From NCBI GenBank assembly GCA_903913145.1, contig CAIWKC010000148.1, forward strand, positions 1 through 36,726: a stretch of 36,726 bases of DNA. The letters are read 5' to 3'. The DNA comes from an uncultured Gallionellaceae bacterium. Lineage in GTDB: Bacteria > Pseudomonadota > Gammaproteobacteria > Burkholderiales > Gallionellaceae. The notes beneath the pieces were generated by a model that was not told the DNA's origin, did not search any database, and saw only the letters and a list, made by a program, of their open reading frames with translations. A program made the position numbers and the translations under genes. This document shows, one piece after another, positions 1,045-21,667 of this stretch (the first letter of the stretch is position 1; each line of letters opens with the position of its first letter).

Positions 1045-1143
1045 TACAATGTTAATCAAAAGGGATGTGTCTGATCTAAAAAGAACCGGATATATTAATT
1101 CAAGCCGCGTTATACAAGTAAAACCGGTTTACCTTTAAAAAAT

Positions 1144-1535
1144 GCTATGTCCGTAAGTTGAGTTGGTCATTTTTTCAAAATATTTCAACTGGTATACGCA
1201 CACACCCCCTCCCCAACCCTGATGAACTAACTAGCCATCTCACTAAGCTGCAAAAAACGCAGCAAGTGATTGGCTATCCCCCGGTGCGAGAGGGGGAAAA
1301 TTCAACAACCAAACAAGTAGTTGCATTTAGCTTCCCTCTCCCACCGTGGGATAACCAGCGACTTGGCTGGTGACTTTGCCAGCCTTAGTCGAATGGCTAG
1401 CTAGTTCATCAGGGACTGAGGGAGGGGGTGAATTTTGGCGTTGTGACTAATCATGTTCGGATAATGCTTTATCACTTAAAAAGTCTATACACTGCACGAC
1501 TTGCGACATTTCCAACGCTATTTACGGACATAGCC
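1144..1535. repeat. MITE-like / long palindromic element with 13-bp terminal inverted repeats
   Basis: GCTATGTCCGTAA (1144-1156) and TTACGGACATAGC (1522-1534) are perfect inverted repeats; internal arms 1203-1238 / 1393-1430 and 1271-1298 / 1332-1357 are also inverted; flanked by TTAAAAAAT at 1135-1143 and 1536-1544. Confidence 0.75.
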
Positions 1536-1541
1536 TTAAAA

Positions 1542-1571
1542 AATAAAACCCGCTCTCGCGGGTTTTATTTT
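1542..1571 (-). terminator. Rho-independent terminator (for rpmBG; sequence is nearly symmetric)
   Basis: AAATAAAACCCGC-TCTC-GCGGGTTTTATTT hairpin with A/T flanks just downstream of the rpmG stop on the minus strand. Confidence 0.85.
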
Positions 1572-15425: not shown

Positions 15426-15493
15426 CGTAGGGGCGTATGGCAATACGCCCCTGTTGGCATATCGGAAAAGGCGTATTGCCATACGCCCCTACG
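15426..15493. repeat. 24-bp perfect inverted repeat (hairpin) in the livH/substrate-binding gene spacer
   Basis: CGTAGGGGCGTATGGCAATACGCC (15426-15449) and GGCGTATTGCCATACGCCCCTACG (15470-15493) are exact reverse complements; each arm contains an internal GGCGTAT..ATACGCC palindrome. Confidence 0.9.
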
Positions 15494-20695: not shown

Positions 20696-21493
20696 ATGCT
20701 CGTTCATCCACAATTCGACCCTGTCGCCATTCATCTCGGCTCGTTCGGCATCCACTGGTATGGACTCATGTATCTACTTGGTTTTCTGGCTTTCATCTGG
20801 CTGGGCAAAAAACGCTTGCGTGCATTGAATATGCATGGTTGGGATGAAAAATTCCTGGATGATCTTTTGTTTTACGGGGTGCTCGGTGTGGTATTGGGCG
20901 GACGCCTTGGTGAGGTATTGTTTTACAACCCCGGTTATTATTTTTCACATCCCTTCAAAATTCTTGCGGTTTGGGAAGGCGGTATGTCCTTTCACGGTGG
21001 ATTTCTGGGCGTGCTGTTTGCGATGGCTATATTTGCACGTAAACGGCAAATTGTGTGGTTGCAACTGATGGATTTCATCGCTCCGTTAGTCCCGGTTGGC
21101 TTGGGAGCCGGACGCATCGGCAATTTCATTAATGCCGAATTGTGGGGTCGCCCCACCGATGGGTGGTGGGGGATGATATTCCCAAATGTCGATAGCATAC
21201 CTAGACACCCCTCGCAGCTTTACGAATTTGCGCTGGAAGGCGTGGCACTTTTCACACTGCTCTGGTTGTTTTCAAATAAACCGCGTCCAATCGGCGCAGT
21301 TTCAGGACTGTTCCTCATTGGCTATGGAAGCTTTCGTTTCATTGGTGAATTTGCGCGCACGCCGGATGACGGAATTTTCGGTTTAATGACCTTTGGCATC
21401 AGCATGGGACAATGGTTGAGCTTGCCAATGGTATTGGCAGGTATTGTAATGATGGCATGGGCATTCAGGAAAAAAAATCTGCCCGGCTTGTAG
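20696..21493 (+). CDS. lgt: Phosphatidylglycerol-prolipoprotein diacylglyceryl transferase
   Basis: [62 protein letters not shown]. Confidence 0.98.
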
Positions 21494-21496
21494 CCT

Positions 21497-21562
21497 GAAT
21501 GTAGCGTAGCGGAATCCGGCGAATTCAAATTAGTAAATCCCGGATTCCGCTTCGCGGCATCC
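21497..21562. repeat. Dispersed-type inverted repeat hairpin downstream of lgt
   Basis: GAATGTAGCGTAGCGGAATCCGG (21497-21519) pairs with CCGGATTCCGCTTCGCGGCATCC (21540-21562) with a few mismatches. Confidence 0.8.
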
Positions 21563-21667
21563 ATACTACCGCTTATGAGACTGAGCCAGCTTGAACCAAC
21601 CCATCTCTTGACACCCCTCCGCACCTCCCCGATACTTCGAACATCATATTAGTACAGGCTTTATCCT

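Follow-up and report, generated by a model that had tools for sequence, protein, structure and literature searches.

A 393-bp non-coding element shortly downstream of the ribosomal-protein gene rpmG in an uncultured Gallionellaceae bacterium, a relative of iron oxidisers, is a member of a real and new MITE family that belongs to a known, ordinary class. Taken as a whole, the data are very probably best explained by a copy of a Gallionellaceae MITE family that was mobilised in trans by an IS1595-type transposase and whose central palindrome accumulated further repeats. The element is unusual mainly for two further hairpin-repeat layers in its middle. The stretch of DNA analysed (the window, 36,726 nucleotides) is contig C148 of a 3.6-Mb genome that is 93% complete and assembled in 439 contigs. 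Comparison of copies resolves the element and its flanks into the following features.

1135-1142, no strand: left target duplication TTAAAAAA, from the sequence and the 13-copy comparison
1143-1535, plus strand: whole MITE, 393 bp, from the copy comparison
1143-1167, plus strand: left terminal inverted repeat (TIR) TGCTATGTCCGTAAGTTGAGTTGGT, starting with T rather than the G of other copies
1168-1202, plus strand: left subterminal arm, conserved in type-A copies
1203-1298, plus strand: left palindromic unit, G/C-rich (CCCCCTCCCCAACCCT ... CCCCCGGTGCGAGAGGGGG), enclosing a hairpin unit
1219-1279, plus strand: hairpin unit of 57-60 bp, CTCACT-stem variant, within the left palindromic unit
1299-1331, plus strand: linker joining the two palindromic units
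1332-1430, minus strand: right palindromic unit, G/C-rich and in the opposite orientation to the left unit
1349-1412, minus strand: hairpin unit of 57-60 bp, TCGACT-stem variant, within the right palindromic unit
1431-1510, plus strand: right subterminal arm, conserved in type-A copies
1511-1535, minus strand: right TIR, GGCTATGTCCGTAAATAGCGTTGGA as read on the minus strand
1536-1543, no strand: right target duplication TTAAAAAA, in the A/T tract that follows the terminator hairpin of rpmG

An earlier note on this DNA had described a ~391-bp non-coding palindromic MITE-like element at 1135-1544, with perfect 13-bp TIRs and a possible 9-bp target duplication. The element is real, but each of these dimensions is revised. 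The perfect 13-bp ends (1144-1156 and 1522-1534) form the core of a longer, imperfect TIR of ~25 bp, GGCTATGTCCGTAAATAGnGTTGGT, and an inverted repeat of 26 nt that is 85% complementary (1141-1166 and 1512-1537) extends this core. Direct copies of TTAAAAAAT are present at 1135-1143 and 1536-1544; the ninth base of this match, T1143, already belongs to the element as its first position, where nearly all copies have G, and the exact span of the element is therefore 1143-1535, flanked by the 8-bp duplication TTAAAAAA. Duplication lengths of 5-10 bp were compared with permuted flank pairings in 13 complete copies (12 from the window genome and one from G006), and a duplication of exactly 8 bp alone stands out: its identity is 84% versus 48% in the permuted pairings, and none of 2000 permutations reaches 84%. 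The duplication is perfect (8/8) in 5 of the 13 copies, and the duplicated targets are 96% A+T. The sole ORF in the element (1158-1373, 71 aa) has no Pfam match and, as its frame crosses the hairpins as well as the left arm, it looks spurious, as had been claimed.

A blastn search of the window genome with the element, a check proposed in the earlier note, returned 80 matching pieces that range from complete copies to fragments, and the element is thus multicopy. The genome contains 12 complete copies of 186-418 bp, the simplest of ~190-200 bp, and ~15 partial copies with the same ends. With up to two mismatches, the 25-bp TIR pattern GGCTMTGTCCGTAAATAGNGTTGGT has 23 matches in this genome versus 0 for the reversed control, a copy number that excludes chance. 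Among 158 Gallionellaceae genomes, the pattern is found in five: the window genome (23 matches), G006 (8) and G007 (2), which are both congeners of the window organism, and G009 and G127 (1 each). Across 84,980 GTDB genomes, the exact inner pattern was matched in four Gallionellaceae or Nitrosomonadales contigs and in three unrelated contigs that look like chance matches, and searches of plasmids, phages and viral contigs returned no match. No two copies are identical, which counts against the preferred explanation as far as recent movement is concerned. The features by which bacterial MITEs are recognised are all present: the element is short and without a transposase gene, has TIRs and a duplication of fixed length, occurs as dispersed copies and is absent from the corresponding locus in relatives.

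In the window, a PilZ-domain gene and rpmG/rpmB adjoin the element, which sits in the T-tract that follows the terminator hairpin of rpmG (about 1547-1568); this position bears out its earlier description as inserted next to this terminator. The insertion, which would have landed in the T-tract beyond the terminator, disrupted neither the adjoining genes nor the terminator hairpin, and the window copy is therefore probably a near-neutral passenger. No sigma-70 promoters were found within the element. The rpmG-rpmB region was located in 14 of 16 relatives searched, and in the 13 that were readable (6 congeners and 7 other Gallionellaceae) no TIR was found beyond rpmG; this search for an empty site, also proposed earlier, is not base-exact, as the genes on either side vary from one species to another, but it clearly shows that the element does not belong to the conserved makeup of the rpmG locus. 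The earlier reading of a non-autonomous mobile element is thus upheld by dispersed copies with the same ends, 8-bp A/T-rich duplications and absence at rpmG in relatives; neither of the outcomes that had been set against it, a single copy everywhere or conservation at the same locus in distant relatives, was found.

The ends of the MITE have close counterparts among IS1595-family elements of the Gallionellaceae. A 1047-bp element of the congener G005 (L162 / L075), with the TIR GGCTATGTCTGCATTACCTGTTGA and the 8-bp duplication TTTTTAAA, has a 342-codon frame that is an IS1595 transposase according to both NCBIfam and Pfam, and appears to be an intact IS1595-family insertion sequence. G136 contains two 1081-bp elements whose transposase is 50% identical to that of G005, with TIRs such as GGCTGTGTTCGTAAATCATGTTGG and, in one of the two, the duplication TAAAGTTA. 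The MITE end GGCTATGTCCGTAAATAGCGTTGG equals the G136 TIR GGCTGTGTTCGTAAATCATGTTGG at 19 of 24 positions, a match with a probability of about 4e-8 for a single random 24-mer, and the MITE TIR equals that of the G005 element at 15-16 of 24 positions; beyond the TIR, no evident similarity was found between the MITE arms and IS1595 ends. Duplications of 8 bp are usual for published members of the IS1595 family, for which the groups IS1016, ISPna2, ISH4, ISSod11, ISNwi and ISNha5 are listed (PMC8101967), and ISApl4 of this family prefers A/T-rich target duplications (PMC12561309).

The window's own draft genome was searched for a full-length transposase-carrying element with the same ends, whose existence the earlier note had raised, and no transposase with MITE-type ends was found; the sole IS1595-domain frame contains a stop and has no MITE-type TIR. 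The assignment to IS1595 therefore rests on the ends and the duplication, and on this basis an IS1595-type element is the likely source of the family. Because the organism's own assembly has no matching transposase, mobilisation in trans is what we infer: an IS1595-family DDE transposase would recognise GGCTATGTCCGTAAATAG-type ends and duplicate 8 bp of A/T-rich target. Between two TIRs on contig C92 lies a 3.6-kb stretch that was considered as an autonomous element and rejected: its interior frames, which on reading we take to resemble a hemerythrin, a histidine kinase and a response regulator, do not look like a transposase, and the second of the two TIRs is part of another MITE, of 199 bp. 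The single TIR matches in G007, G009 and G127 were also set aside: none has a second TIR close by, and no adjoining frame was recognised as a transposase.

Comparison of sibling copies reveals constant ends and a variable central palindrome. Type-A copies have both subterminal arms in common and differ in the middle, which consists of a short C/G-rich palindrome only in C356, a longer palindrome in C240 and C175, and a pair of inverted G/C-rich units joined by a linker in C252, C154 and C333:1136. The 57-60-bp hairpin is found in both units of the window copy and C79 and in one unit of C231 and C143; the stretch that simpler copies do not contain is about 1220-1276. Copies C92, C333:26897 and C79:4139 have another central palindrome, of the CGCCCGACAAGTCGGCCTCCCAC type, and other arms with the same TIR, a combination that defines a second MITE subtype (L145, L147, L102, L146). 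In the window copy, the nested inverted arms noted earlier are real (1201-1247 and 1384-1430, a long inverted repeat, 77% complementary), and folding on both strands, which had likewise been proposed, is far more stable than in dinucleotide shuffles (DNA z −12.6; RNA z −16.2 for the plus strand and −13.7 for the minus strand). The earlier view that the interior folds into one long stem is correct as to the strong fold, but the interior is made of two nested layers of other palindromic repeats. As siblings with and without them suggest, the central G/C-rich palindrome would have gathered further palindromic repeats, among them the 57-60-bp hairpin unit, which appears to spread independently across the family Gallionellaceae; such accumulation would account for the 393 bp of the window copy versus ~190-200 bp in the simplest copies.

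The hairpin unit occurs in the window at 1219-1279 (plus strand) and 1349-1412 (minus strand) and nowhere else. Two other inverted repeats are present in the window: a perfect 24-nt repeat with a 20-nt loop at 15426-15493 (CGTAGGGGCGTATGGCAATACGCC), and a 30-nt repeat, 80% complementary with a 20-nt loop and starting GTAGCCTGAATG, at 21490-21569, which looks like a separate palindromic repeat. In an alignment of 29 hairpin-unit variants, 93% of cells are paired, and two-sided changes in the stem number 37 versus 16 (sd 3) in shuffles, a margin to be read with the caveat that related sequences can beat such shuffles without structure. The pairing signal collapses when the partner is slid, and this control and the existence of two stem variants agree that the stem covaries. 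The unit may act as DNA or as RNA: a G-U pair retained in 28 of the 29 variants hints at RNA, but a DNA hairpin recognised by a protein would also fit.

Most of the sampled Gallionellaceae have matches to the hairpin stretch, whereas the 24 genomes that represent other families of the order have none. Across the Gallionellaceae, the unit also stands alone at many unrelated sites, and its contexts include G/C-rich palindromes, CTCTGTGTCTCTG-type repeats in several congeners and tandem hairpins in G005. At L056, L058, L059 and L061 (G003, G007, G001 and G004, respectively), it lies within a CTCTGTGTCTCTGTGGTG-type repeat that is unrelated to the MITE, and at L104 and L105 (G005) it forms tandem arrays in which different stems stand back to back with no gene between them. 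Rfam has no family near the gathering score for either the element or the hairpin unit. A hammerhead ribozyme, considered for a CTGATGA beside the hairpin, was rejected on this ground and for lack of a GAAA core on reading, and an attC/integron site was rejected because the core motifs RYYYAAC/GTTRRRY are absent on reading. A RAYT source was discarded because the window genome has no Y1 transposase domain (PF01797); in relatives, the presence of the unit has no link to Y1 transposases, with several genomes that have the unit and no Y1 transposase and several with the reverse. That the unit is a mobile element in its own right, spread across the Gallionellaceae by some enzyme, which favours palindromic or repeated targets, inserts with no evident duplication and thus rides inside MITEs, is a rather doubtful possibility.

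These features bear on three other explanations. Both ISL3 and IS6 ends start with GGC/GG and generate 8-bp duplications, and two MITE copies begin GGCTCTTTCC or GGCTCTGTCC, which would suit a source of the ISL3 or IS6/IS26 type. However, the window genome contains no ISL3 or IS6-type (IS240) transposase domain, the scanned ISL3 and related loci of relatives have no such TIR pair, and the ends match IS1595 far better, which makes such a source very improbable. The strong fold on both strands and the covariation in the inner hairpin would also be expected of a structured RNA or regulatory element that is fixed downstream of rpmG rather than mobile. For the element as a whole, this proposal is already refuted and retains next to no probability, given the dispersal of copies at unrelated loci with target duplications, the relatives' rpmG loci without the element and the result of the Rfam search.

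The third explanation concerns the nested layers, which might be not insertions but products of hairpin-templated duplication during replication, with the simpler siblings as deletion products. The left unit is related to the right one in inverted orientation, G005 contains tandem hairpin arrays, and long palindromes are prone to deletion, all of which this mechanism would accommodate. Against it, solitary hairpin units are found at many unrelated sites in the Gallionellaceae, and congeners have the unit within an unrelated repeat of the CTCTGTGT type. In addition, the two units of the window are different stem variants, CTCACT and TCGACT, so that they are not a fresh mutual duplication. We consider this origin of the layers unlikely, and accumulation of separate repeats within a MITE probably mobilised by an IS1595-type transposase is the preferred reading.

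MITEs as a class are well known, as is a MITE with a REP that is targeted by another element (QMITE2, PMC5896051). What is new is this MITE family and, as the less expected part, the undescribed hairpin repeat nested inside it; a literature search in which few subscription journals were covered returned nothing on MITEs in Gallionella or on IS1595-linked MITEs. The family adds a MITE with a plausible IS1595 source to the uncultured iron-cycling Gallionellaceae and provides a clear example of nesting at three levels, with one short repeat in another and both within a third. Most worth following up is the hairpin unit that occurs across the Gallionellaceae: its stems covary, it has no connection to Rfam families or RAYTs, and its mobiliser, or an RNA function, can be put to the test.

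Among known systems, the IS1595 family (for example, ISApl4) is the closest in its ends: the MITE TIR begins GGCT and is near-identical to Gallionellaceae IS1595 ends, and the 8-bp A/T-rich target duplications are shared. In contrast to these insertion sequences, the MITE has no transposase gene, and its subterminal and inner parts bear no relation to the IS copies that were found. Another small MITE, QMITE2 of Coxiella burnetii (PMC5896051), likewise contains a palindromic repeat, a REP that is itself the target of another element; its repeats are of 7-11 nt and its REP, of the GTAG kind, is targeted by IS1111, whereas the element described here has an 8-bp duplication and other nested repeats. 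With REP/BIME and REPIN sequences and their RAYTs (PMC3733652, PMC3116915), the interior shares intergenic, paired inverted palindromic units with a short linker and alternative complementary stems. It differs in that the window genome has no Y1 tyrosine transposase and the hairpin unit in relatives is not linked to one; no GTAG or CGTC tag was seen at the stem foot on reading the aligned units. Finally, the Correia elements of Neisseria (PMC10969869) have other ends, and no promoter was detected in the window element; like it, they are small, dispersed, intergenic MITEs with strong secondary structure.
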